In this document: positions 1,910 through 53,956 of the stretch, piece after piece
Position numbering within the stretch: position 1 is the first letter of the stretch
Layout of the letters: each line of letters starts with the position of its first letter
Source of the DNA: a virus
DNA length: 53,956 nt
Virus record (IMG/VR): IMGVR_UViG_3300032087_000093
Coordinates: 1 to 53,956 of that record
Strand: one strand, 5' to 3'
Translations under genes and position numbers: made by a program
The notes under the pieces: model-generated
Databases searched by the model: none
Told to the model about the DNA's origin: nothing
The model's input: the letters and a program-made list of their open reading frames with translations, nothing else

Positions 1910-3148
1910 CTATTTATTAATGCCCAATTCTTTTTTAGCAGCGTAGTACTTTTGCATTGACGCATCATTGCCAAAGTGTTTTCGCACCAAGTCTTCTTCC
2001 GACTTGCTCATTCCTGCTTTGTATCTCATGTACAAACCAGCAAGGGTGGGGTAGTGCTTTTTATGTTCTTCTAGGGGTATATTGCCGTAACCTAATCCCC
2101 GATACTTAGCTTTTTCTTTTTCTGAGGCGTTTGTCTTTTTAGATGATCCTTCTGGACCTACGTAAATATCTCCATATTTTTTTACGTTAAGTGCGTTACG
2201 CCCTTCTGCAATTAATTTTTCGTAATATTTTTTAAGTCCCGGCTCAGTTTTAAATGCTAGGTCTAGTTCTCCAAACCTGTCAGTTTTCATAGCCTCTAGT
2301 GTTTTCTTTGTAATTTGAAGGGGGCCAAATGCAGAAGATTCTTTGCCTGTTTTATCGGACCGTGTAAAGAAATACCCTTCGTTTCGATCCTCATACCCCC
2401 TAGTTTCTACAAGAGTCAGGGCTTTTTGCACTGCTCCTATATCAATATCATTAACAGTATACGGGGGTAATCCTCCTGAATCGTACTCTTTCTGCTGTAT
2501 AAAGCCTGAGGGAGTGGGCGTTGTTACATTCAAGCCTGACTTCATTAGTTCGACTGCAGAAAGCGGCCCAGCATAACGAAGCATACCTCCGCTATTGTAT
2601 CCCCCTATAAATCCTCCCTGCGCTGCAGCCTGACGGCGTTCCACTTCGGGCTTGCCCCTGTTGTTTTCTTTTTCTAGGGCAGCGTATCCGCCAAATTTGC
2701 CGATATCGTCTACGTCGATAACGTATTCGCCCTTAGAGAGGGCTACGTCCATCATCTTGCCACCCTTTGCAGCCTTGCGTTTTTGTGGGCCTTTGGGTAG
2801 CTTGCCTTCTTTTTGTAGGCGTTCTGTGGTTGGTGCGTTGAGAACAAACGATCCTACACGGACACGGTGGTTCTCTGTGTCGGCAACTGTAGTGCCCTTT
2901 GCATAGTTCTGGGGTGGGCCGTCTACGAAGCCGGTAGACTGTATAGGGTCAACTTTGCCACCTTTGTTTTTTTTTACGATGCCGCCCTTGCGGTATTGAT
3001 CCACATCCATGCCATCGAATAATTCTTCCCCAAGAACACCCCGCACAACTCGTGCAGCAGGTGTTTCCATAAAGTCTTGCAGTACAGCGTAGTCTTTTTT
3101 GTTTAGTTTCTTTACGCGACTCAAAACTCGCTGCTGATACTTATTCAT
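1910..3148 (-). CDS. Virion protein with a lytic-transglycosylase-like C-terminal domain
   Basis: This 412-residue protein starts at ATG 3148, which overlaps the TGA of the preceding gene as ATGA; that overlap is why I prefer it to an upstream start at 3199. The N-terminal half has Gly/Lys-rich linkers. Residues about 236-390 resemble soluble lytic transglycosylases: a helix ending in LVET with Glu248 as candidate catalytic acid, then SSAFGPLQIT (271-280), which matches the family's G-x-L-Q-I/V signature. Such domains are carried in virions to open the peptidoglycan locally during DNA entry. This fits a structural protein better than a lysis enzyme, because a separate lysozyme gene sits at 49805-50320. 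The middle segment (SKGEYVID) recurs in phage internal proteins. Confidence 0.6.
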   Translation of the reverse strand: MNKYQQRVLSRVKKLNKKDYAVLQDFMETPAARVVRGVLGEELFDGMDVDQYRKGGIVKKNKGGKVDPIQSTGFVDGPPQNYAKGTTVADTENHRVRVGSFVLNAPTTERLQKEGKLPKGPQKRKAAKGGKMMDVALSKGEYVIDVDDIGKFGGYAALEKENNRGKPEVERRQAAAQGGFIGGYNSGGMLRYAGPLSAVELMKSGLNVTTPTPSGFIQQKEYDSGGLPPYTVNDIDIGAVQKALTLVETRGYEDRNEGYFFTRSDKTGKESSAFGPLQITKKTLEAMKTDRFGELDLAFKTEPGLKKYYEKLIAEGRNALNVKKYGDIYVGPEGSSKKTNASEKEKAKYRGLGYGNIPLEEHKKHYPTLAGLYMRYKAGMSKSEEDLVRKHFGNDASMQKYYAAKKELGINK

Positions 3149-4605
3149 TTCTTTAGACACAGAACAATCCTTCCCACAGCGTAGCAAACAGGCTCCCAAA
3201 ACGCTCTTTCGATACGTCCTATCGGATGACGTTTACCCTTCTTCTGCATCCAAATGTCTGCAGTGCGACGACGAGCAATCCCTTCCAATATATTACGAAC
3301 AAACTTGCGAGGCCTAGTAACGCCGCCGTATCCGTATGTTACGAGGGGCTGAAAGATAGCGTGATATCCTGCTTGATACTCAGGAGCCATGTCACGACTG
3401 TGTGCCAGCCAAATAGCTTGACGGAACGAGCCAAAACCGTAGGCTTGGTTCATGGCTGTGCAAACAATTTTGCCGCCACCGCCATCGTCGTCATCGTCGT
3501 CCGGTGAAGTGCCACCTCCCGGCGCACCTCCGGGACCACCATATGGATCGTCTGGGCCGCCTGCATAGGGTGGAGGCGAGGACGGGGGAGGTGCGCTTGA
3601 TGATGTATCGTCATCGTCGTCCGGTGAAGTGCCACCTCCCGGCGCACCTCCGGGACCACCGTAGGGATCGTCTGGGCCGCCTGCGTAGGGTGGGGGCGAA
3701 GGCGGGGGAGGAACAAAGGAGTCATCGTCCGGTTGAGACGGAGGGCTTGGGTCCATTCCCGGATCACCCGGATAAAAATCATCTGGTTGAGAGGCGGGAG
3801 GAGAAGTCGGAGGAGGAACAAAGGGATCATCTACACCGGGGCGGAAGTCTCCTGCCCCCGCATCATCCTCTGGCGGAGTAATGCCTGTATCAGGGTCTGG
3901 ATCATCATCAAAATCAGGCAGTGGGGGCTGCGGAACAGGAGTAGCAGGAGTATCTGTATCAGGGTCAAAGTCTCCCGCACCCGCATCACTCTCTGGCCCT
4001 GTAAGACCTGTGTCGGGGTCTTCATAGTCTGATCCCGGAGGAACAGCAGGATCAACAGGAGGCTGATAGTTCATGGCAAGAAGCTGATCTATAATTTGTT
4101 TTCTCTGTCCGGCAGTCAAGCCCTCTGGGAGTACGCCTGAAAGTACGTATCCACCAAAAGGTCCGGGTGATACGCCAATAATGCGATTACCCAACATTCC
4201 TACACCGTATCCAGCTTCTCCTGCTCTCATTTTATTTTGAATGTTGGTAAGATTTTTTTTAGATATCGCTGATCCCGCAGCGATAAATGGATTAAATCCC
4301 AGAGGGGATAGTCCTGCTCCCAGATACTTATCCATACCTACAAATCTGTCGCCTACGTCGGCTCCGATACCCGTTACGTCTAAGGCTCCGGTGTAGTAAG
4401 TTTCGCCGTCTTCTCCTCCCACGCTCGTGCCAGAGTAAAATGAGTCAGGACTTGTATAGTCTGGTGTGGGACGAAAACGATCACTGATGTCCATCCGTTC
4501 TTCGTCGTCAAACGGACTGGGAGCCTTCACTGTTGGCCGCGTCACACCGGGAGTCGTGCCCAGTAATGCGCCTGATGCAATATTTTTTAAAAACTGTGAA
4601 GCCAT
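3145..4605 (-). CDS. Proline/aspartate-rich virion-associated protein with internal repeats
   Basis: This is a 486-residue protein of unknown function. Residues about 185-375 are low-complexity, built from Pro, Asp and Gly, and include two near-perfect 40-residue repeats (the 120-bp DNA repeat listed separately). The C-terminal 110 residues are ordered and look conserved, with FGSFRQAIWLAHSRD followed by an aromatic stretch and a basic, cysteine-containing tail. The start ATG at 4605 overlaps the TAA of the 75-residue gene upstream (TAATG), and its TGA overlaps the next start. The acidic, proline-rich middle suggests a flexible linker. A head or ejected protein is likely from its place in the head operon. 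Confidence 0.6.
   Translation of the reverse strand: MASQFLKNIASGALLGTTPGVTRPTVKAPSPFDDEERMDISDRFRPTPDYTSPDSFYSGTSVGGEDGETYYTGALDVTGIGADVGDRFVGMDKYLGAGLSPLGFNPFIAAGSAISKKNLTNIQNKMRAGEAGYGVGMLGNRIIGVSPGPFGGYVLSGVLPEGLTAGQRKQIIDQLLAMNYQPPVDPAVPPGSDYEDPDTGLTGPESDAGAGDFDPDTDTPATPVPQPPLPDFDDDPDPDTGITPPEDDAGAGDFRPGVDDPFVPPPTSPPASQPDDFYPGDPGMDPSPPSQPDDDSFVPPPPSPPPYAGGPDDPYGGPGGAPGGGTSPDDDDDTSSSAPPPSSPPPYAGGPDDPYGGPGGAPGGGTSPDDDDDDGGGGKIVCTAMNQAYGFGSFRQAIWLAHSRDMAPEYQAGYHAIFQPLVTYGYGGVTRPRKFVRNILEGIARRRTADIWMQKKGKRHPIGRIERAFWEPVCYAVGRIVLCLKK
3491..3711. repeat. Tandem 120-bp repeat inside a virion gene
   Basis: Two copies, 3491-3591 and 3611-3711, are spaced by exactly 120 bp; the first 50 bases are identical. 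They encode two copies of a Pro/Gly/Asp-rich segment (YAGGPDDPYGGPGGAPGGG). Confidence 0.9.
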
Positions 4606-4832
4606 TACTCTTTTGCTCTTACTGCTGCATCATAATCAGCCTTGAGGCCCTTGATCTGTTCCAGTGAAGTTATCCTCCCCTGCAGCCGGAACACTTCCAG
4701 TTCCGATTGTGCCGCCACCAACGCCCGAAGCGTCATCTGGATTTGCTCCCGGAGGTACTCCTCCAAGCTGTCCCACGCCTCCTTGTTCGCCACCAGTGGG
4801 CTGACCTTGCTGGCTTGCTTCTTGTTGAGCAT
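4605..4832 (-). CDS. Small helical protein overlapping the portal gene out of frame
   Basis: A 75-residue, mostly helical protein with no recognised motif. It lies out of frame over the last 197 bases of the portal gene. Three signs show it is real: a good AAAGGA site seven bases before ATG 4832, a TAATG junction with the next gene, and a sequence with normal protein-like composition (alternating hydrophobic and charged helices). The portal tail in the same stretch is instead low-complexity Gly/Gln/Pro. Other podoviruses often carry a small head-closure or adaptor protein next to the portal, but I cannot assign a role. Confidence 0.7.
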   Translation of the reverse strand: MLNKKQASKVSPLVANKEAWDSLEEYLREQIQMTLRALVAAQSELEVFRLQGRITSLEQIKGLKADYDAAVRAKE

Positions 4833-6756
4833 TGGCTAGTCCTTTCAACATCTCTGCAAAAATCTGTGCCTCATTCATGTCGTTTACGAGGCTGTCCGGA
4901 TCGATGTCCTGTGCTATGGCAAGTTCACGCATAAGGTTTGGAATCTTGATGAATGGTGCTAGCATTGGGTTCGATACGGTCTGCAGCAGGGTGGTAAGTC
5001 TCTGACTGCGTACTTCCTTCTGCATCACTGCAGCTACACCACGAGGCTTGATCTCTAAGTCACCCTCAATCTCCGGTGAAGAATCGTTGAACTGCATGTT
5101 CCACTGGAAGTATGCCTCACCCAGCGGCTTGAGAAGCTGGTCATCTATGTTCTTGATGACTGTCTTCAAGGACAAACTGGCCCCACCTAACAGCATAGAC
5201 AGACCTGACGCGGTGCGTCCCGTGCCAGTTACGCCTGTCTGACCGTGCATAATCGACGGCAGTCCTGTCTCTTCGTCAGCAAGCTGTCGGCTAATCTGAT
5301 ACATCTGAATATTCTCAGGTGCCGTATTTGGAAACTTGAGGCCATTGATTGCTGTGCCGGTAACGCCTGACTGTCTGCGGAATATCTTGCCGGGGAAGAT
5401 ATCCATGTTCTGTCCGGGAACCAACGATGCTTCATCAACATCGAACACAAGATTGCCAGCAAGAGCGAGGTTGTCAATTGCCATACGAACGTGGCCGTTC
5501 ATCAGCAGTTGAGCGTCTTCCATGTTTTCTGCTACGCCAACACCCCACACTTGGTATGGATTGATTTCGTATGGAAAGACTTGATAGGGTATGCGGGCTG
5601 GTGTGAAGGGATTTAGGACACAGCGAAGAATTATGGTTCCGCATGTCCAGACGTTCACCTGTACCTGTTCAAACTCACTCATGTCCGAAGGGACATCTAA
5701 GCCAGATTCTCGTGCTAGTTTGGCATCTAGGAAGCCCCAGTATTCTAGGATTTCGTAACGGCTATCCCCTACGTAGGGTTCTGTCTCTTCCTCACGAATC
5801 GTATCTTCGTAGTACTTGTCTTCGTAGTTAGGCCCTTTTGCTAGACACTCTTCAATAGCATCAGCGTAGAAGTGGGGCTGTGTTATTAGGTTACGAAGTT
5901 GTTGACGGTTCATACGGTGTCGTTGGATTACGTACTCGCAGTCGTCAATACTTGTAGCTGACGGATCAGGATGAAAATCCCACGCAGATACGTGTTCTAT
6001 GCGCGGTACAACCCGCTCGTATGGATTGTACATACGTCCCTCTGGGCCGTTCTCCCAGCGGTGTATTCGCTTGTAGTGATTAAATGGTCCCTTGACGATG
6101 CCCGTACCCAAGAGTGCGGACTCGAAGATAGCACTGCGTAGTACGTTCACTGCGCGAGTGTCGAGAAGTTGATCGTGAATCATCTTCTCCATGTTTAGTG
6201 CGGCATTTTGTGCAGGCTTAATTTGGGGTTCGCCGACAAGGGCTGGTCCCTCAGACAAAGGGGCATTTCCGTACTTGCCTGCTAGACCGCCCAAGAAGTC
6301 TCCAGATGGTGTAGCCTGTGTAGCACCAAATGGAAGTTCCCTTCCATCACCGGCAAAACCATACGGGTCTTCCTGTGGCTGCATCTGATCTAGGGGAGTG
6401 GTTAGATGCGCAAACTCCGATATACCTTCTGGTATAGGAGTCGGTTCTATGACCAGTGGAAACTTTTTGTTGGCAAAGAGGATGTCTACAATCTGTCCGT
6501 ATGCAGCAAGAACCTTAGTCTTTGTGATCTTGATAAATACCCTCGACTTCTCGCTGTCACGATACTGTGTAGTAGAATCATAGATGCCTCGAAAGTTCTT
6601 ATACGCTCTCAGCCATCGCTGTTCGTATGAAAATCTTCCGTTCTCTGCCTCGTCGAACCGTGTCTTGACGTACGCTGCCAACCCCGGCATCTGCTCTTCG
6701 GGTTCGACAAGGGGTACAGCAGTATCGTCTGCAGGTTCTAAAAAGTTATCGGACAT
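4636..6756 (-). CDS. Portal (head-tail connector) protein
   Basis: This 706-residue protein matches the podovirus portal type in length and arrangement. It has an N-terminal helical clip region (RFSYEQRWLRAYKNFRG), a long middle with aromatic and acidic stretches, and a helical C-terminal part. In the mature head a portal ring of twelve copies forms the DNA channel and docks terminase and tail. The last 70 residues are Gln/Gly/Pro-rich low complexity and coincide with the overlapping small gene at 4605-4832, so they may be a late extension. The gene follows the terminase and recombinase-like genes and a 72-residue protein in one leftward operon. Confidence 0.85.
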   Translation of the reverse strand: MSDNFLEPADDTAVPLVEPEEQMPGLAAYVKTRFDEAENGRFSYEQRWLRAYKNFRGIYDSTTQYRDSEKSRVFIKITKTKVLAAYGQIVDILFANKKFPLVIEPTPIPEGISEFAHLTTPLDQMQPQEDPYGFAGDGRELPFGATQATPSGDFLGGLAGKYGNAPLSEGPALVGEPQIKPAQNAALNMEKMIHDQLLDTRAVNVLRSAIFESALLGTGIVKGPFNHYKRIHRWENGPEGRMYNPYERVVPRIEHVSAWDFHPDPSATSIDDCEYVIQRHRMNRQQLRNLITQPHFYADAIEECLAKGPNYEDKYYEDTIREEETEPYVGDSRYEILEYWGFLDAKLARESGLDVPSDMSEFEQVQVNVWTCGTIILRCVLNPFTPARIPYQVFPYEINPYQVWGVGVAENMEDAQLLMNGHVRMAIDNLALAGNLVFDVDEASLVPGQNMDIFPGKIFRRQSGVTGTAINGLKFPNTAPENIQMYQISRQLADEETGLPSIMHGQTGVTGTGRTASGLSMLLGGASLSLKTVIKNIDDQLLKPLGEAYFQWNMQFNDSSPEIEGDLEIKPRGVAAVMQKEVRSQRLTTLLQTVSNPMLAPFIKIPNLMRELAIAQDIDPDSLVNDMNEAQIFAEMLKGLANAQQEASQQGQPTGGEQGGVGQLGGVPPGANPDDASGVGGGTIGTGSVPAAGEDNFTGTDQGPQG

Positions 6757-6765
6757 GTCGCTTCC

Positions 6766-6984
6766 TTAGTAGTCGCGTTCGTCTGCCATCTTAAACAGTG
6801 AAGCCTCTACAGTTGGCTTGGTTTGCTTTTTAGGCATAGCTTCGATCATCGGTCCTGTCTGAACACGAGTATCAAATTCCAAGCTTTCACGATAGAGAGA
6901 GGATGCACCCTCGTCCTTATCGACGCTTGTCTTGTCAGCGTTCATAATGTACGCTGCACCAAAGTTGTAGTTGTTACCGGCCAT
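6766..6984 (-). CDS. Small protein of unknown function before the portal
   Basis: A 72-residue soluble protein with no known motif. It starts with a Gly/Asn-rich stretch and has no membrane segment. It sits nine bases before the portal gene and 19 bases after the recombinase-like gene, so it is co-expressed with head genes and could be a minor head protein. The start ATG at 6984 follows a GGAGGC-type ribosome site. Confidence 0.6.
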   Translation of the reverse strand: MAGNNYNFGAAYIMNADKTSVDKDEGASSLYRESLEFDTRVQTGPMIEAMPKKQTKPTVEASLFKMADERDY

Positions 6985-7003: not shown

Positions 7004-8929
7004 TTAGCGGACTACGCCGCCGTAGAGAAACGATGGTGCTTGATCCATCGCGGTTGTTTCCCCTCGCATCGCATTAGCGCGGGCTTCGGGAACTGGTACG
7101 AACCCTTGTGCAGCCATGTCAGGCGCAGGGGGTGCGGGATCGGGAATTTTCGGGGCGGGCGCATCTGCGGCCTGTTGGCTGAAATCAATTCGGGGAACCA
7201 TGCCCAGCACAGAAGCCATTTGGAGTGCTGTCTTTCCTGCTCCCTCCGGATCAGCGACAGCACCCGTAACCATTTCGCCAACGACGCCTGCGCCACCTCC
7301 CATGCGAGACACAAAACTATCCTCAGGCTGTCCCGTCAGTTCTGACGTAAAGGTGCGGCCTTTTTGTTCTGCAATGTCATAGCTTTCTTTGTCTACAACA
7401 CCACCAATCAAGTCAAACAGCGGGCCGGGGGCGGACTTGGCCATAGCAAGCCCCGTAGTTGCTGCTGCTATAGCACTAGATTTGAGAGTCTTCTTAGCTG
7501 AAGAGAACTCTTCTGCCATATCAGCTAGGAAGTCATCAAACATTCCTGATGCTTGTTCTTTTTTTGCCGCTGCTGCTGCCTCTTTACTCTGCGCCTTTGC
7601 AACAGCGAGTGCCTCACTCTTTGCTACAGCCTGATCAATTTTTTCTTGGTCTATACCGGCCCGCGTTTCTACAGCAGCACTCTCGTCAAGAGCAGCCTGT
7701 AGGTCAGAAGCTGCTGCACTCGCTCTTAATTCAGACCGTCTAGCATTCCTAACTTCGTCGATAAGTTCAACATCAACTTCAGTTAGTGGTCCTACATTTT
7801 GATTAGCAGGAGTAGGAACAACATCAGAGCCGCGAGGTAAAACCTGAAGTTTAGGTGAACCTACAGCAGTTAGGTTGTTTGCAGAAACATTCAAACTAGC
7901 AGGCAGTTCGTTTAAGGTTTCTAAGCCCATTACTTCGGCCATCATGTTGTGAAGGCCATTGAGAGCTTGTCTTTCCGCACTTCCCTCGCCAGTTTCAATC
8001 GGAGATATGTAATTTGCGGCAGTCATTTTTTTGACTGACCCCATCATCTCATCGTAAGAGGCATGTCCCATAACTGTACTTACGGGTATACCCATGTTGA
8101 GTTCGCCAACCATAAGAGACGGAACAATCTTACGTATATCACTCGCACCAACAAAGGGACGGGGCTTCCCTCCCCCTAGTATCTTTTCGTACTGTTTAAA
8201 CTGATCCCTTATTCCGCCTGCTACTTTTGTAGCTGTGGTCATTTGCGCCGTTGTACGATCAAATATTACGGACTGGCCGTTTGCTACGGCTGCAGCGTGT
8301 GCGTCTCTGAGTATCTCTAGGGCAACTTCGGGAAGTTGAATTGCCCCCCTAATTTTATTACCCCTTCTCCACTCTTCTTTAAATTGTCCTGTTTCGAAAT
8401 CAAAATCATCTATACCTATTTTTCCTACTTCTCCCGGACGAAGGGGCACAAGGAAATTAAACGCTACGGCAGCGCGGGTTTGAGGATCGGGGATTGCATT
8501 AATACCCTTGATAAATGCGGGTATAGCATCTTGAGCGGGAGGAACAGCTTTGGGCTTCACACGAGACTGCCCAGCTTCGCTGGTGCCACGAGGCTGCACG
8601 GCAGTAGCCAATTCTAGTTCAGTCGCTCTTCCTGATGCCCCATACCCAATCTTGTATGAATACTCCGCACCCTCTTCAGATTGTGCAGCAAGCTTGCGGA
8701 GTTGCTGTTCAGCAGCACCTAGTTCGACGAACTGAGCATTCTTACCCTGCTCGTTAAGATCACGAAGAAATTTATCAGTTGATACAGTTGACCAGTTGTC
8801 GTCTAGGCCATACCCCATCGCTTTAATTCTGTTGAGTGTAGCACCGGGATTTTTCCGAATAGAAAGAGCCTCACGAATAGTAAGCGTACCATCCGCAGCC
8901 TTCGCTCCTATTTCAATCTTGCTTGCCAT
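7004..8929 (-). CDS. Tyrosine-recombinase-like domain fused to a long virion-type C-terminus
   Basis: In this 641-residue protein, residues about 130-310 look like the catalytic domain of tyrosine recombinases. VPLRPGEV carries box I Arg164, Lys192 lies in the following beta-turn, ASDIRK carries box II Arg266, VMGHA carries His289, and ANYIS carries Tyr307. The usual box II His is Ser263. The next 330 residues are Ala/Glu-rich helices and a Gly/Pro-rich tail unlike any integrase. The gene abuts the terminase stop codon (no gap) and precedes the portal, so it is expressed with late packaging genes, not in a lysogeny module. It could be an ejected recombinase, a resolvase acting during packaging, or a domain reused structurally. 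The motif reading is mine and unchecked. Confidence 0.6.
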   Translation of the reverse strand: MASKIEIGAKAADGTLTIREALSIRKNPGATLNRIKAMGYGLDDNWSTVSTDKFLRDLNEQGKNAQFVELGAAEQQLRKLAAQSEEGAEYSYKIGYGASGRATELELATAVQPRGTSEAGQSRVKPKAVPPAQDAIPAFIKGINAIPDPQTRAAVAFNFLVPLRPGEVGKIGIDDFDFETGQFKEEWRRGNKIRGAIQLPEVALEILRDAHAAAVANGQSVIFDRTTAQMTTATKVAGGIRDQFKQYEKILGGGKPRPFVGASDIRKIVPSLMVGELNMGIPVSTVMGHASYDEMMGSVKKMTAANYISPIETGEGSAERQALNGLHNMMAEVMGLETLNELPASLNVSANNLTAVGSPKLQVLPRGSDVVPTPANQNVGPLTEVDVELIDEVRNARRSELRASAAASDLQAALDESAAVETRAGIDQEKIDQAVAKSEALAVAKAQSKEAAAAAKKEQASGMFDDFLADMAEEFSSAKKTLKSSAIAAATTGLAMAKSAPGPLFDLIGGVVDKESYDIAEQKGRTFTSELTGQPEDSFVSRMGGGAGVVGEMVTGAVADPEGAGKTALQMASVLGMVPRIDFSQQAADAPAPKIPDPAPPAPDMAAQGFVPVPEARANAMRGETTAMDQAPSFLYGGVVR

Positions 8930-10600
8930 TTAGTATCCGAATACTTCGTCTTGGACTTGGTGAACTTGGTTCTTGATCGCATGGAGTTGCTGGTGTATCG
9001 AAGCGTAGCCACTCATGCGTGTCATCATTCCGTAGCGCAGGGCATCGTATGCGTGGTCTTCTGCCTTCGTATCTACGTCTTCGCTGTTCGTCTTGGAGAG
9101 TGGTATGCCTGCAATTTGCTTGACGATGTTCTGACACGATGAGAAGAAGCGTAGGCGTGGCTCTTCTGTGTATGGATCGTCAGCGAGGCGGCGGTGTATT
9201 TCCATCTTTCCTTGAATGCGATTGCGGTCTGATGGAGTCCAGCGCACACCCTCACGCATCATCACTTCTGCAATTGACGGCCCGAAACCCGTCTTGTTCC
9301 AACATGACGAGTCGAGGACCGTGTAGTGAGGTAGAGGGTCTAGTTGTTCCGCTTCTAGTATTCTAGCGGCTAACTCCTCTGCTGTCAAGTGCTTTTGGTA
9401 TAATTCTCTGTATATCCAAATATTGTTGTCCCAGTCGATAGCACCCCAGAGAACACAGGATGGTGCTGCGTATCCGTAGTCGGCCATACGTATGCGAGGC
9501 CAGTTCGTTGGCAAGTCGAATGCTTCGACAACATGCTTGGATCGTGAAAATTCTGGGAAGGCCGCTCCCTCCGCCACGTCCCAATCCCCTTCAAGAAGCC
9601 TCTTCCGCTCGACTTCCGGGAGCGACCTGAGCATAGCCTCGTACTGGCCGTCTGCCATCAGGTAGGGATTGTCAGTCAGCCTTGCTGGTACGAACTTGCG
9701 GTAGAACAGGGGCTGACCAGCCTTTTCGTGACCCGCAGGCCACACAAAGGGATTTTTTGTTTCTACGTCGAAGGCAGGAAAAGGCTTGTTCTCTGGTGTT
9801 CCTTCGATGTAGGTCTTCTTGACCCACCAACCACCCACTCCTCCGGGGTTGGCTGTGCAGCGCATGTACAGGTGTTGCTGGAGTTCAGGATCAGTAGCAC
9901 GAAGGCGAGAACGCAGGTAATCCCAGACATAAGGTGTGGGGTACTGCGTAATCTCATCGATGCCTATCCAGTTGAATGCCTGTCCCTGAAAGCGGGTTAC
10001 GTCCTTGTCTTTGTCGAGGTAAGTGAACCAGATGGTTGCACCAGAGGGAAAGACCCACGTAGACTTCGACTCACGAAACTTCGCACCGGGAAATGCCTTG
10101 ACGTATAATTGACGTGACTTATCGATCAGTTCGGTTAGTTCGTCGAGAGTACGCCTAAGAAGAAGCCCACGATGATTAGGGTTGTGGCAGAAGCGCAGAG
10201 GATCGGCCAAGAGAGCGAAACTCTTTCCGCCACCCGCTGCTCCACCATAGAGAACATCTCGTTCACTCGAACTGAGAAACTCTTCTTGGGGTCCACTGTT
10301 GGGACGGAATACGATCTGTGCATCATCCACCAAATCTGCAACGGCTGCAGGCAGGTCATCCAGATCACCCTGATCAACGACTGTCGTATCTTTTCCAACA
10401 AGGGCCTTCTCCACTTTGCCTATTTTGGTTTCGAGTTTGCGGGCGTAGCGACGTTTGTCCTCTGCCGCCTTCGTTGTCTTGGCTGCACGACGCTTGGCTG
10501 CGTTGAGTTTCTTTTGGGCAGCACGTCGGGCACGTTCCTTTGTAGACAGGTTGTACGTGGCTTTGGGTGCGTTGGGGTCTTTCTTAGGACGACCCGCCAT
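8930..10600 (-). CDS. terL: Terminase large subunit (packaging ATPase-nuclease)
   Basis: This 556-residue protein is the motor that cuts and pumps DNA into the head. The N-terminal 60 residues are basic. The ATPase has Walker A GGAAGGGKS (119-127) and Walker B WIGIDE (211-216), with Glu216 as catalytic base. The C-terminal RNase H-like nuclease shows candidate metal-binding acids at MADYGY (Asp374), TVLDSS (Asp430) and EDHAYDAL (Asp515/Asp519). All core motifs are intact and the length is normal. It overlaps the small-subunit gene by 17 bases. Confidence 0.93.
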   Translation of the reverse strand: MAGRPKKDPNAPKATYNLSTKERARRAAQKKLNAAKRRAAKTTKAAEDKRRYARKLETKIGKVEKALVGKDTTVVDQGDLDDLPAAVADLVDDAQIVFRPNSGPQEEFLSSSERDVLYGGAAGGGKSFALLADPLRFCHNPNHRGLLLRRTLDELTELIDKSRQLYVKAFPGAKFRESKSTWVFPSGATIWFTYLDKDKDVTRFQGQAFNWIGIDEITQYPTPYVWDYLRSRLRATDPELQQHLYMRCTANPGGVGGWWVKKTYIEGTPENKPFPAFDVETKNPFVWPAGHEKAGQPLFYRKFVPARLTDNPYLMADGQYEAMLRSLPEVERKRLLEGDWDVAEGAAFPEFSRSKHVVEAFDLPTNWPRIRMADYGYAAPSCVLWGAIDWDNNIWIYRELYQKHLTAEELAARILEAEQLDPLPHYTVLDSSCWNKTGFGPSIAEVMMREGVRWTPSDRNRIQGKMEIHRRLADDPYTEEPRLRFFSSCQNIVKQIAGIPLSKTNSEDVDTKAEDHAYDALRYGMMTRMSGYASIHQQLHAIKNQVHQVQDEVFGY

Positions 10601-10997
10601 CGATCACGACCTCTTTCTTGGGTGGCAGCAGGACAACGCCGTGTACTGCAGCTACGTTGTGGTTGATTGTCTCCTGCTGCTTCACTCCTACCCTGTTTAA
10701 GAGGCTCTCAGCAGCCTTGAGACGCAGATCATCACCGCGTTCGGGGGCGGGGTTGTCAATTGTGTCTACGAGGCGTGTAGCGGCCTTGTAGGCATTCATA
10801 GACAGGATGTCTTTCGTGCGATCTACGATCTCTTCAGCGAGTGTTTTGCGTAACCAGACTGCACTGCCCTTCGAGTAGCCCGCATCTACGGCTGCTTGGG
10901 TTACGTTGCCACCGTTTTCGAAGAGAATGTCGAGGAATTGCGTCTGTTGGGGCGTCAATTCACGCTTTTTTGGTGTTTGTTGGGGCAGGAGGTTCAT
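10584..10997 (-). CDS. terS: Probable terminase small subunit
   Basis: A 137-residue protein with an N-terminal helix-turn-helix region (LTPQQTQFLDILFENGGNVT then AAVDAGYSKGSAVWLRKTL, residues about 15-55), typical of small terminases that recognise the packaging site. A helical oligomerisation region follows, then a C-terminal tail that would contact the large subunit. It directly precedes and overlaps terL, the standard order. It is identified by fold-like features and position. Confidence 0.8.
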   Translation of the reverse strand: MNLLPQQTPKKRELTPQQTQFLDILFENGGNVTQAAVDAGYSKGSAVWLRKTLAEEIVDRTKDILSMNAYKAATRLVDTIDNPAPERGDDLRLKAAESLLNRVGVKQQETINHNVAAVHGVVLLPPKKEVVIDGGSS

Positions 10998-11000
10998 AAC

Positions 11001-11201
11001 TTAAGTCGATTCCTGTTTGGCAGGGGTACAAGTCGCGGCTACGATGACTTTTCCGGGCGTAACTGCGCGTATTTCACCTATCATCTGGACAACACGGGTC
11101 GCACAGTCACCCTCGTCGAGGTACGGACCCTTGATATCGGTGAATTGTGTGCATTCGTTGGGGCTGTGAAGCCAACAAGCGAATATCATAGCCGTGAACA
11201 T
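11001..11201 (-). CDS. Small cysteine-bearing secreted-type protein, first gene of the packaging operon
   Basis: A 66-residue protein. A short hydrophobic N-terminus (MFTAMIFACW) suggests export or a membrane anchor, followed by a small domain with Cys17, Cys33 and Cys58; the last two frame a D-C ... C-x-P-K pattern also seen in the 62-residue protein at 49432-49620. Function unknown. A disulfide-bonded periplasmic protein, such as a superinfection or lysis accessory factor, is possible. The start ATG at 11201 follows AGGA. It is three bases upstream of terS and is the first gene after the strong leftward promoter at 11321-11349. Confidence 0.65.
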   Translation of the reverse strand: MFTAMIFACWLHSPNECTQFTDIKGPYLDEGDCATRVVQMIGEIRAVTPGKVIVAATCTPAKQEST

Positions 11202-11320
11202 AGCTGTTTTCCTAGAAGTGAAGAAGGGTGAGACGCATTCATGTCCGCTACCACTGGGTTAGTACAACTGAATTGTCGTGTAGTGGGGTGGTCCGACATA
11301 AAAATGCGGCTCACGTCAAC

Positions 11321-11349
11321 AGTATAGGGACTTTTTACATGTGTGTCAA
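11321..11349 (-). promoter_or_regulatory. Strong leftward sigma70-type promoter for the packaging operon
   Basis: Read leftward: TTGACA at 11349-11344, exactly 17 bases, TATACT at 11326-11321. The -35 box is perfect and the -10 is 5/6. It would drive the secreted protein, terminase, portal and head genes after a leader of about 110 bases. Confidence 0.8.
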
Positions 11350-11358
11350 CTTTTTTTC

Positions 11359-11387
11359 TTGACAAAATTAAAATCAGACTGTACTAT
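11359..11387 (+). promoter_or_regulatory. Strong rightward sigma70-type promoter with no gene in front of it
   Basis: TTGACA at 11359-11364, 17 bases, TACTAT at 11382-11387. The boxes are as good as those of the divergent late promoter, yet every gene to the right until 16409 is on the other strand. It may make a noncoding RNA ending near 11652. Confidence 0.7.
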
Positions 11388-11393
11388 GGGCAT

Positions 11394-11652
11394 AGGCCCG
11401 CGGGGGTAAACCCCATAGGTACCCTCCGACAACCATCGGGTACTCCCCAACGTATCCTTTTTACTCATATTGATTACTATACTCGACACAATTGCTGTCG
11501 GGATTGCATACAGATACTGGTACTCCCCCGGTGGCCTTAGCGACCCCTATGGGCCGTTCCCCATCGGTGATGCCAAGGTGGCCAACAATTCGACAAACCC
11601 AAACAAAGCCCCGCCGGATTCACTCTTGCATGTGCGTCTGGCTCTTTTTTTT
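11394..11652 (+). ncRNA. Possible structured noncoding RNA of about 260 nt
   Basis: Predicted from a good promoter (TACTAT box ending at 11387), several GC-rich hairpins (GGGG/CCCC at 11403-11414, GTACCC/GGGTAC at 11419-11443, ATGGG/CCCAT at 11549-11564) and a terminator-like end (GCCGGA/TCTGGC plus eight T, 11613-11652). No open frame with a ribosome site fits it. I know of no matching RNA family. This is inference only. Confidence 0.35.
11613..11652 (+). terminator. Candidate rightward terminator
   Basis: GCCGGA (11613-11618) pairs with TCTGGC (11637-11642, one G-U pair) around an 18-base loop, followed by TC and eight T (11645-11652). The stem is modest. Confidence 0.4.
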
Positions 11653-11791
11653 ACCATCCGCCGACAATTTGTCATGTGCCTTACTTCATGGGGCGTGTGT
11701 CACGGGCAAAAAGCGCAGCAATCCCCGAACAAGTAACCCGCCAGATTATCCCGCCTAAACAAACCCGTGCGGTATTTACTGGCATCCGCAC

Positions 11792-11824
11792 AAAAAAAGA
11801 CCCCCGCCACTAAGGGACGGGGGC
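11792..11824 (-). terminator. Strong leftward terminator of the early operon
   Basis: Read leftward: CCCCCG (11823-11818), an 11-base loop, CGGGGG (11806-11801), then TC and seven T (11798-11792). It ends transcripts of the 11879-16270 operon before they reach the terminase promoter. Confidence 0.88.
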
Positions 11825-11878
11825 AAGGTTGGGAGGAAGATTGCCGGGATATTAGCCCCTCACCGGCAGGGTAACTCT

Positions 11879-12100
11879 TCAGTCGTCTTTCGAGACTGTA
11901 AACTGTGCGGACGCAATAGAGCGGGGGCTGCTGCTCATCCACTTCTGCAAGCCGATTGCATCCATGAAAGTATCTAGGGCATCGATCTGGCTTTCAATGC
12001 CGGTAATCATTGTCCGGATTGTGCGGATTTCCTGTTCGGTAATCGCGAATACCTTCCTAGCTTCAGATGTAGTCAGTTCGTTTTTGATTTGTGTATTCAT
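11879..12100 (-). CDS. Small helical protein, last gene of the early leftward operon
   Basis: A 73-residue, mainly helical protein (EARKVFAITEQEIRTIRTMI) with coiled-coil character across residues 10-55 and a polar, Ser-rich tail. No known domain is recognised. The start ATG at 12100 follows AGAGGA with good spacing. The gene sits alone between a leader that contains a GC hairpin and the strong terminator at 11792-11824, so its level may be set separately from the rest of the operon. Confidence 0.7.
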   Translation of the reverse strand: MNTQIKNELTTSEARKVFAITEQEIRTIRTMITGIESQIDALDTFMDAIGLQKWMSSSPRSIASAQFTVSKDD

Positions 12101-12131
12101 TGTTATAGTTCCTCTTTACCTAGATGTGTGA

Positions 12132-12161
12132 GGCGGGCAACCGCGCCCGCCCCTGATTATA
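12132..12161 (-). promoter_or_regulatory. Perfect -10 box followed by a GC hairpin in the leader
   Basis: Read leftward: TATAAT (12161-12156), then GGCGGGC (12151-12145) pairing perfectly with GCCCGCC (12138-12132) across a six-base loop. The -35 region is weak (GCAAAG at 17 bases). The hairpin lies at the expected 5' end of the message for the 73-residue protein. Confidence 0.4.
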
Positions 12162-12169
12162 AGCACAAG

Positions 12170-12562
12170 TCATGCAGCCTTTGCAAGCCGATAAATCTTG
12201 GCATATCCCCCGCGATGATTGCCGGTGTTGCGCCTGTCGATCTGATAGCCCATCTTTTCAAGCTGCCAGAGATAGGTATAGACGGTTTCTTTCGTGATCC
12301 GCAAATTACCGGCAAGGGTAGGAACCGCGATATAGCCAGCCTCTAAGAACCGAAGCATCTTCTTCTGTGTTGAATTCAAGCGGACAGTTACAACGTCTTT
12401 CGGCTGCAGGCCGGATTCGTGCAGCGGCTGGCTTGTTTGTTCAGCGAACAATTCGCCCCGCATCTTGCTTATGATCCGGTCCCGCTCGTCACTCCTAATA
12501 GCAAGTTCGAAACGATCAGCCAGTGTCTTCAGTTCTGAGAGTAGTTCTGGTGGATACTTCAT
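12170..12562 (-). CDS. Winged-helix DNA-binding protein, probable phage regulator
   Basis: A 130-residue protein. The N-terminal third is helical. Residues about 60-125 form a winged-helix pattern: a helix (TQKKMLRFLEAG), a helix-turn-helix (VPTLAGNLRITKETVYTYLW) and a basic wing with GNHRGGYAKIYRL. This architecture suggests a transcription regulator. An operator-like inverted repeat at 13750-13764, within the promoter of the DUF932 gene in the same operon, is a candidate target, but that link is speculative. The start ATG at 12562 has a weak ribosome site. Confidence 0.7.
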   Translation of the reverse strand: MKYPPELLSELKTLADRFELAIRSDERDRIISKMRGELFAEQTSQPLHESGLQPKDVVTVRLNSTQKKMLRFLEAGYIAVPTLAGNLRITKETVYTYLWQLEKMGYQIDRRNTGNHRGGYAKIYRLAKAA

Positions 12563-35658: not shown

Positions 35659-36204
35659 CTACTCTACCTTATCTTTGGGCGTGTTAAGAAACGAAGCAGG
35701 GGATTCTGCTTGGGGGTATACGACTTCTACGGACGACTTCTCTTCTGCAGCCATACGTATATCCTCGTTTATCTTTTCGTTCATAGCTTTGTACAGTTCC
35801 GGATTGCGATCCTTCGCAATGTTAAAGAAGGTTGCATCCTCAACTTCACCCTCAGATACTTTCGGATCAACAAACATCTGTGGTTCGAAGCCCTCTTGAA
35901 GGGCCATGTCAACCAGAGCAATACCAAGTGCAGGCTTCATAAGTTCAGCAACGTCAGGGGTAACTGCCCCCGCCATGAACCCCTTGAAGGCAAGCTGCTC
36001 AACAATCTCCTCGACAGTGATGCCAGCCAACATCAGCTTGAGCATGTCGTCACGAGCAGGCCCATTCGATATCATCTCTAATGCGTGATCTATAGCATCA
36101 TCCGGATTCGGGAATTGTGGTGGCTGTTCCCACTTCCACTTGCCGGGTGGGTCTGTGAGAGAGTTGCCCGGAGGAACGGCTAGGGCTGTGATTTTGTCCA
36201 TCAT
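35659..36204 (-). CDS. Small virion-associated protein of unknown function
   Basis: A 181-residue soluble protein with a helical middle (VEEIVEQLAFKGFMAGAVTP) and an acidic C-terminus. No known domain. The start at 36204 overlaps the TGA of the preceding gene (ATGA). It lies among internal virion genes, so it may be an internal or assembly protein. An ATG one codon further in could equally be used. Confidence 0.55.
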   Translation of the reverse strand: MMDKITALAVPPGNSLTDPPGKWKWEQPPQFPNPDDAIDHALEMISNGPARDDMLKLMLAGITVEEIVEQLAFKGFMAGAVTPDVAELMKPALGIALVDMALQEGFEPQMFVDPKVSEGEVEDATFFNIAKDRNPELYKAMNEKINEDIRMAAEEKSSVEVVYPQAESPASFLNTPKDKVE

Positions 36205-53047: not shown

Positions 53048-53956
53048 CTACGCGAAGTCGATGACGCCGCGAACGACAGCTTCTGGGCGCAGAACTTTGC
53101 GACCAAAAACGTGCAGACCACGAATAACGTCAGAGAACGACTCAGTTGAACGAACCACTTCGGTCTTAGCAATGTGCGAAGCAGTGGAGGTGGACGACAT
53201 GTGGCCAGCAAGAATCACATTCTCAGAGGCGTCAGTTGCCACACCAGACAGAGTTACCTGATCGGTACCTGCTGTTGAGTTAAGCGCAGTAGACTTGTAA
53301 CAGCGGAAACCAGCAAGGGTGCCCGGAATAGCAAGACCGTTACGCAGTGGAGAAGTAGCGTCACCAGTTACCTGAACTTCAGCCATCTTGTTTCCGGCTT
53401 GGAACATCTTCTCGTAGAAGATTGGTGGTGCTACAAACCAACGATTCTCTTCAGGCACAGACTGATCGTCCAGTGTACGTGCCATCAGCAGCATCAAGTT
53501 GATGCCAGCATCGTCAGTTTCTACGTTGATAGGAGCGGATGCAGTACCCAGCGCACTGTTTGTGGTGGTAAGACCACCTGACAGTGAAGCGTCGTCAGCA
53601 CCAGCGATACCTGCGCCATCAGAGATAGCTTGCAGGACGTTTGCATCGTACTTACGCTTCAGAGCAAATGCACCTGATGAGGTAGCAAGTGCTTCAAAGT
53701 TTACGTGCGAATGCCGCTCTTCGATGTCGTCAATCTTGAACGCGAAAGCGTTTGCGTTATCGACAACCATCGTGATTTGATCGTCAGCCAAGTCTTGTGC
53801 GTTTACGACGGAACCTCGTGTATACGAACTGACTGTGACTGTTGGTTCTTTGATGATGCGAACCGTGTCGCCAAAGTTTTCAATTTCGCCCGCGTAGTCG
53901 GTGTTTGTAATATCTTCTACAACCGAAGCACGACGGAAGAACTTGAGAACCTTTTG
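53048..53956 (-). CDS. Major capsid protein, 3' part (second allele, cut by the window edge)
   Basis: The frame is open from the window's right edge to TAG 53050-53048 and encodes the C-terminal 302 residues of the capsid protein. Bases 53098-53956 match the left-end copy without gaps, with mainly silent changes; the last 16 residues (ending VVRGVIDFA) are found only here. Segments include the MFQAGNKMAEVQVTGD and DVIRGLHVFGRKVLRPE stretches. Taken together with 1-928, one complete 325-residue gene is obtained. Confidence 0.8.
   Translation of the reverse strand, partial: QKVLKFFRRASVVEDITNTDYAGEIENFGDTVRIIKEPTVTVSSYTRGSVVNAQDLADDQITMVVDNANAFAFKIDDIEERHSHVNFEALATSSGAFALKRKYDANVLQAISDGAGIAGADDASLSGGLTTTNSALGTASAPINVETDDAGINLMLLMARTLDDQSVPEENRWFVAPPIFYEKMFQAGNKMAEVQVTGDATSPLRNGLAIPGTLAGFRCYKSTALNSTAGTDQVTLSGVATDASENVILAGHMSSTSTASHIAKTEVVRSTESFSDVIRGLHVFGRKVLRPEAVVRGVIDFA
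53098..53956. repeat. Right terminal near-repeat (matches 1-859)
   Basis: This is the partner of the left terminal copy: same length, no gaps, scattered substitutions. The presence of differences argues against a true identical terminal repeat and for two strain variants meeting at the contig ends. Confidence 0.85.

Follow-up and report, generated by a model that had tools for sequence, protein, structure and literature searches.

The packaging operon of an uncultured HMO-2011-type podovirus encodes a 641-residue protein whose residues 1-345 are, near certainly, a tyrosine recombinase with a core-binding and a catalytic domain. The gene is best explained, at slightly better than even odds (about 0.52), as coding for a catalytically competent recombinase that would be expressed late and docked in the virion, probably to be ejected along with the DNA. 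A sequence-only reading of the same DNA had proposed an ejected recombinase, a concatemer-resolving enzyme tied to packaging, or an exapted fold in the virion. The operon position, the coiled-coil tail and a terminal motif common to virion proteins indirectly favour the first of these; late expression, virion docking and ejection are inferred.

Source phage and operon

The DNA analysed here, called the window, is positions 1 to 53,956 of IMG/VR record IMGVR_UViG_3300032087_000093 and is a complete or near-complete genome. Its TerL is 57% identical to that of Roseobacter phage CRP-603 and its portal protein 54% identical to that of Pelagibacter phage HTVC104P. Positions 1-859 overlap positions 53098-53956 at 91% rather than 100% identity. 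Since the ends overlap over 859 bases the map closes at about 53.1 kb; the genome maps circularly, and its assembly probably joined two population variants. The minus strand at 3145-4605 encodes a protein rich in proline and aspartate with internal repeats, and the counterpart region varies among otherwise near-identical relatives. A search for RNA families returned none.

The operon has the order terS-terL-recombinase-p72-portal (Table 1). The gene had been described as lying between terL and portal with no gap; it does abut terL, but 247 bp separate it from the portal gene and contain the conserved p72, which the sequence-only reading had overlooked. The 72-residue product of p72 shows 72% mean column identity over 30 sequences, and no relative of it was found in 50,697 phage records. 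The C-terminal MAxExDY end is the sole part of p72 common to HTVC033P gp78 and gp79. The recombinase gene is taken to be expressed late because the strongest promoter-like site on the minus strand lies upstream of terS, and this site probably reads into it. Clear genes are lacking from about 1.2 kb upstream of terS (11000-12170), where promoter-like sites stand back to back near 11320-11390 and a strong terminator-like site occupies 11800-11824 (minus).

Table 1. Coordinates of the recombinase gene, its domains and associated features in the window
Feature	Position	Strand	Remarks
P0001, tyrosine-recombinase/coiled-coil fusion, 641 aa	7004..8929	minus	
N-terminal helical domain, residues 1-83	8681..8929	minus	place of the lambda Int core-binding domain; AlphaFold2 helices, high confidence
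Catalytic domain, residues 132-333	7931..8536	minus	R164, K192, S263xxR266, G288-H289, Y307
Long helices, residues 384-478	7496..7780	minus	probable coiled coil
C-terminal tail, residues 605-641	7007..7117	minus	QGFVPVPEA and PSFLYGG motifs
terL	8930..10600	minus	stop codon touches recombinase start; 5' breakpoint of swaps
terS	10584..10997	minus	opens packaging operon
p72, 72-aa ORF	6766..6984	minus	separates recombinase gene from portal across the clade
portal	4636..6756	minus	N-terminus MSDNFLEPADD; short motif type as in recombinase tail
Sigma-70-like promoter, TTGACA-17-TATACT, 11/12	11321..11349	minus	upstream of terS; called from the consensus match alone
181-aa protein	35659..36204	minus	adjoins giant inner-virion genes; C-tail PASFLNTPKDKVE, recombinase-tail motif type

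This arrangement is constant. All 142 IMG/VR loci with both terL and portal of the clade, the window included, carry a single ORF of 530-816 residues immediately after terL, followed by p72 and portal, so that in every one of them the gene occupies the terL-portal interval rather than a lysogeny module. These loci were picked because they resemble terL, portal or the recombinase gene of the window, and universality therefore holds for the window's clade. A reverse search with the recombinase domains alone yields 84 further loci, all with terL and/or portal/p72 adjoining. The slot gene is absent from the isolated HMO-2011-type relatives CRP-345, CRP-603, CRP-3 and HMO-2011, where terL adjoins portal. 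It is also missing from HTVC115P and HTVC033P, which have small ORFs in the interval, from phiM6, which has an unrelated gene set there, and from L211, a related phage contig in a Blastopirellula MAG. The TerL of this contig (L211:6747-9338) contains an apparent intein-like insertion.

Identity of the recombinase

Single sequences of the slot protein are poorly recognized by standard searches. P0001 alone matches PHROG 1 (integrase) at E=2.4e-5 and has no credible match in Pfam, the PDB, phage records or plasmids; three diverged relatives likewise find no credible match in 50,697 phage records. The Pfam Phage_integrase family is matched individually by 17 of 59 relatives, and single-sequence Pfam scores for slot recombinases lie mostly under the cut-off. 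Family profiles (hmmsearch) bear out the recombinase assignment that the sequence-only reading had proposed. They match the XerC-like archaeal protein 4a8e (E=1.8e-11), XerD (5dcf, 1.8e-10) and Tn1549 Int (3e-10), and also XerH, XerA and lambda Int, the last across both domains, with positions 45-332 of the A3 profile aligned. Protelomerase and topoisomerase IB are other conceivable identities; the profiles favour Xer/Int.

The predicted fold points the same way. An AlphaFold2 model of residues 1-345 has a mean pLDDT of 81.5, and its best PDB matches by Foldseek are tyrosine recombinases. These are XerH, Tn1549 Int, lambda Int and Cre, all matched at a probability near 1 but with modest TM-scores of about 0.4. 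The loop-helix that bears Y307 (residues 292-314) is modelled at pLDDT below 50.

Active site and selection

The catalytic residues reported from the sequence (R, K, SxxR, GH and Y in the order of tyrosine recombinases) are present as described, with D264 and I265 completing the S-D-I-R box. In an alignment with 58 diverse relatives, which has 15% mean column identity, the invariant columns are just M1, R164, R266 and Y307. Among 103 sequences, counting those relatives whose sequence reaches the column, R164 is found in 103/103, R266 in 95/95 and Y307 in 93/93; a few A3 rows that seem to lack R266 or Y307 are sequences cut at 375 residues. Position 289, His in the window, is His in 59 and Arg in 34 of 93 relatives and nothing else. 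The beta-hairpin Lys is less strict, with K or KG near columns 189-192 in most relatives but not all.

The His of box II (HxxR) is absent. The window has Ser263, relatives have S, Y, T, K, E and others in this column, and no row of A1 has His. The same residue is missing in SSV1-type and pNOB8-type integrases, which carry KxxR or YxxR (PMC8371274), and as both variants are known in the superfamily Ser263 does not disqualify the protein from membership. Without the box II His, the enzyme might act only weakly or depend on a partner.

Within types, dN/dS of the enzymatic part is 0.02-0.07 for pairs with enough change to measure. This is as low as in terL, and the enzymatic part has the lowest values. 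The recombinases of a type evolve under strong purifying selection, and the active site is under selection. The suggestion that the protein might be an exapted, non-catalytic virion component that keeps the recombinase fold is scarcely tenable and strongly disfavoured. Apart from the start Met, only catalytic residues form invariant columns, R, R and Y persist in all relatives at 13-15% overall identity together with H or R at 289, and the enzymatic part has the lowest dN/dS. What speaks for such an exaptation is the loss of the box II His, the position, the coiled-coil tail and the shared terminal motif.

Exchange of recombinase types

The 114 unique slot proteins form one linked homologous set. 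Clustered at 50% identity over their first 400 residues they give 37 groups, and terL and portal are mostly more than 70-75% identical among clade members. Identity in the N-domain does not track identity in terL (Spearman rho 0.014, compared with 0.18 for terL against portal; the pairs are not independent, so only the effect size counts). In 75 pairs terL is at least 93% and portal at least 90% identical, yet the N-domains are less than 30% identical, and groups with terL at least 97% identical hold up to five types in five loci. The four loci L013, L027, L030 and L031 have flanking DNA that is 96-98% identical and carry three unrelated recombinase types; the pairs L039/L040 and L090/L129 repeat the pattern. 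Breakpoints lie at the terL stop and inside or at the end of the recombinase ORF. Near-identical flanks around unrelated enzymes indicate that the diversity is old and exchanged rather than the product of fast mutation. Judged by these comparisons, the slot enzyme is universal in the clade and is exchanged among close relatives as tens of diverged types.

No obvious co-swapped site is seen in the flanks compared. L050 and L052 were compared over about 34 of their 53 kb, and they differ in several further segments as well. Two candidate sites were rejected. One is the near-palindrome AGTAT-TCGG-ATACT at the terL stop, which codes for VFGY, the conserved end of TerL; for the other, similarity in the terS-terL interval, considered as a co-inherited recombination site, is independent of recombinase type. 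This interval (e.g., in L013, L027 and L103) is a second variable slot that ranges from -13 to about 1200 bp. The lack of an obvious co-swapped site would suit a target that lies beyond the phage genome, within the gene or in stretches other than those compared. Swaps of what would be DNA specificity, with no visible co-swapped site, are hard to reconcile with an enzyme whose target is a fixed site in the phage, which counts against the preferred account.

The C-terminal arm and the virion

The sequence-only reading had described half of the protein as structural-looking. As a description of the C-terminal half this is fair, in that it comprises a coiled coil and low-confidence Ala/Pro-rich sequence, but no homology to structural proteins stands behind it. 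Tail residues 605-641 are near-identical in close relatives whose recombinase domains are unrelated. An F-[LIMV] pair occurs in the last 22 residues of 95 of the 114 slot proteins and is missing from 19, while shuffled tails carry it in 16 cases on average and 27 at most. Nearly all members have the same motif type at the portal N-terminus (xxDNFLxP), and the C-tail of the 181-aa protein has it in 14/14 loci examined (PASFLNTP, PQGFIATE, PSFLTMGE). In the recombinase-less relatives checked, five portals lack it at the N-terminus and three homologues of the 181-aa protein lack it in the C-tail. That virion proteins unrelated to one another carry such a terminal motif suggests that they dock to one partner in the particle, the motif itself being only two to three residues long. 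Proteins distantly related to the 181-aa protein occur in HMO-2011-type, Rhizobium, Vibrio and Aeromonas phages, where they are annotated only as hypothetical; the C-tail of the 181-aa protein varies among the motif types found in the recombinase tail. Two other explanations of the tail were dismissed. Constraint at the DNA level finds no support in the tail, which has synonymous changes and resembles a recombination flank; for a membrane-spanning segment the hydrophobicity is only marginal, with values above 1.6 in 10% of proteins.

A virion-borne recombinase would work as follows. The enzyme would be made late from the terS-terL-recombinase-p72-portal operon, and residues 1-345 would cut and rejoin DNA via Y307. 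The C-terminal 300 residues would form a coiled-coil arm, and its F-[LIMV] end would most likely dock the enzyme in the procapsid at or near the portal. The docked enzyme would then be packaged, ejected with the genome and act on DNA as the next infection starts, candidate targets being the incoming phage genome (for circularisation), the host chromosome and competing DNA. Recombination exchanges the whole enzymatic module between phages, and with it presumably the DNA specificity; the neighbouring genes are kept, as is the extreme end of the C-terminal tail in close relatives. The fuller proposal of a polymorphic virion-delivered system, with a recombinase in each particle and tens of types passing through one slot above a constant anchoring tail, is tentative and put at somewhat under even odds.

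In a more aggressive form of delivery, the ejected recombinase would attack plasmids, prophages, co-infecting phages or host loci, and its types would reflect competition among phages. The exchanged enzymatic domain, the purifying selection and the constant extreme tail do resemble polymorphic delivered effectors, as many as five types coexist in five loci with near-identical terL, and a cognate site is not seen in the phage. Against this, no target or immunity gene has been identified, p72 is conserved across types and hence is not a type-matched immunity protein, and tyrosine recombinases usually need paired sites. Such an effector is considered very unlikely.

Relation to known systems

The nearest relatives of the slot protein are of the Xer/integrase type (XerD/XerH/XerA, Tn1549 Int and lambda Int; PF00589, DNA_BRE_C), with which it has in common the fold, the two domains and the R-K-xxxR-H-Y order. 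It differs from them in an added C-terminal arm of about 300 residues, in its place in a packaging operon, in a box II Ser (Tyr, Thr, Lys or others in relatives) and in Arg at position 289 in about a third of relatives. The archaeal SSV1-type and pNOB8-type integrases, also without the box II His, are true integrases of archaeal elements and have no virion-type arm.

Integrases of the same superfamily occur in the related phages CRP-1, CRP-2, CRP-3 and HMO-2011. Their genes, which in CRP-3 encode 357 aa, sit upstream of replication and have no counterpart here, and in these phages no gene lies between terL and portal. Their existence lends some weight to the idea that the clade consists of temperate phages whose prophage integrase has moved into the late operon and changes its att specificity by allele exchange. 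Integrases are among the closest biochemical relatives of the slot protein, other HMO-2011-type subgroups have a tyrosine integrase with CRP-3 integrating at tRNA-Met (PMC9038755, PMC6918029), and changing att sites would suit modular exchange. However, the match to the CRP-3 integrase is weak (over box II-GH-Y, hhalign E=0.0017 at a probability of only 16%), and room for attP is scant, with 0-6 bp to terL and about 20 bp to p72. The window has no tRNA T-arm of the kind that an attP, typically close to int, usually matches, and only two weak ones occur in 114 genes. No provirus of the clade was found via p72 or terL in 84,980 species genomes, among which the hosts may be absent. Neither the window nor 12 long phage records has another PF00589 gene, the hits in those records being the slot gene itself, and no repressor or excisionase is recognisable. 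A relocated integrase, perhaps with a hidden, non-tRNA attP elsewhere, is judged quite unlikely.

The other precedent lies in an unrelated virus realm. Baculovirus VLF-1 is a nucleocapsid protein of the tyrosine-recombinase family that takes part in genome packaging (PMC11654684). The slot protein would resemble it if, as inferred, it resides in the virion; VLF-1 is one conserved protein, whereas the slot genes form a swapped set. Phage phiCbK, not known to be temperate, also has a tyrosine recombinase, gp143, thought to resolve multimers (PMC3556154), but this is a 208-aa catalytic core in the replication module. In line with what has been proposed for these two proteins, the slot enzyme might act with terminase and portal in the producing cell, resolving multimers or branches or preparing genome ends, with any presence in the virion at most incidental. 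It shares an operon with terL and abuts it exactly, and every clade member examined has the enzyme. A housekeeping role predicts a conserved enzyme and site, as against 37 swapped types in near-identical genomes; HMO-2011-type relatives without the enzyme still package DNA, and no site is swapped along with it in the compared flanks. This packaging role is regarded as unlikely, and a virion-borne, probably ejected recombinase is preferred.

Implications

According to the authors of the baculovirus structure, tyrosine recombinases of other virus groups have not been implicated in virion formation or packaging (PMC11654684), and VLF-1 is the one case of such a role found in the open-access literature. 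The slot recombinase would be a second case, and one directly open to test. A tyrosine recombinase in a phage is read as a sign of lysogeny, and enzymes of the slot type are missed by profile scans or misfiled. The tens of diverged enzymes, presumably differing in specificity, are a new source of recombinases for biochemistry. If the enzyme is virion-borne, the clade would supply the first phage particle in which a tyrosine recombinase is known, and likewise the first whose DNA specificity can be exchanged. A widespread type of marine phage would then deliver a DNA-rearranging enzyme at entry, which would matter for the circularisation of genomes, for superinfection and for oceanic gene transfer.
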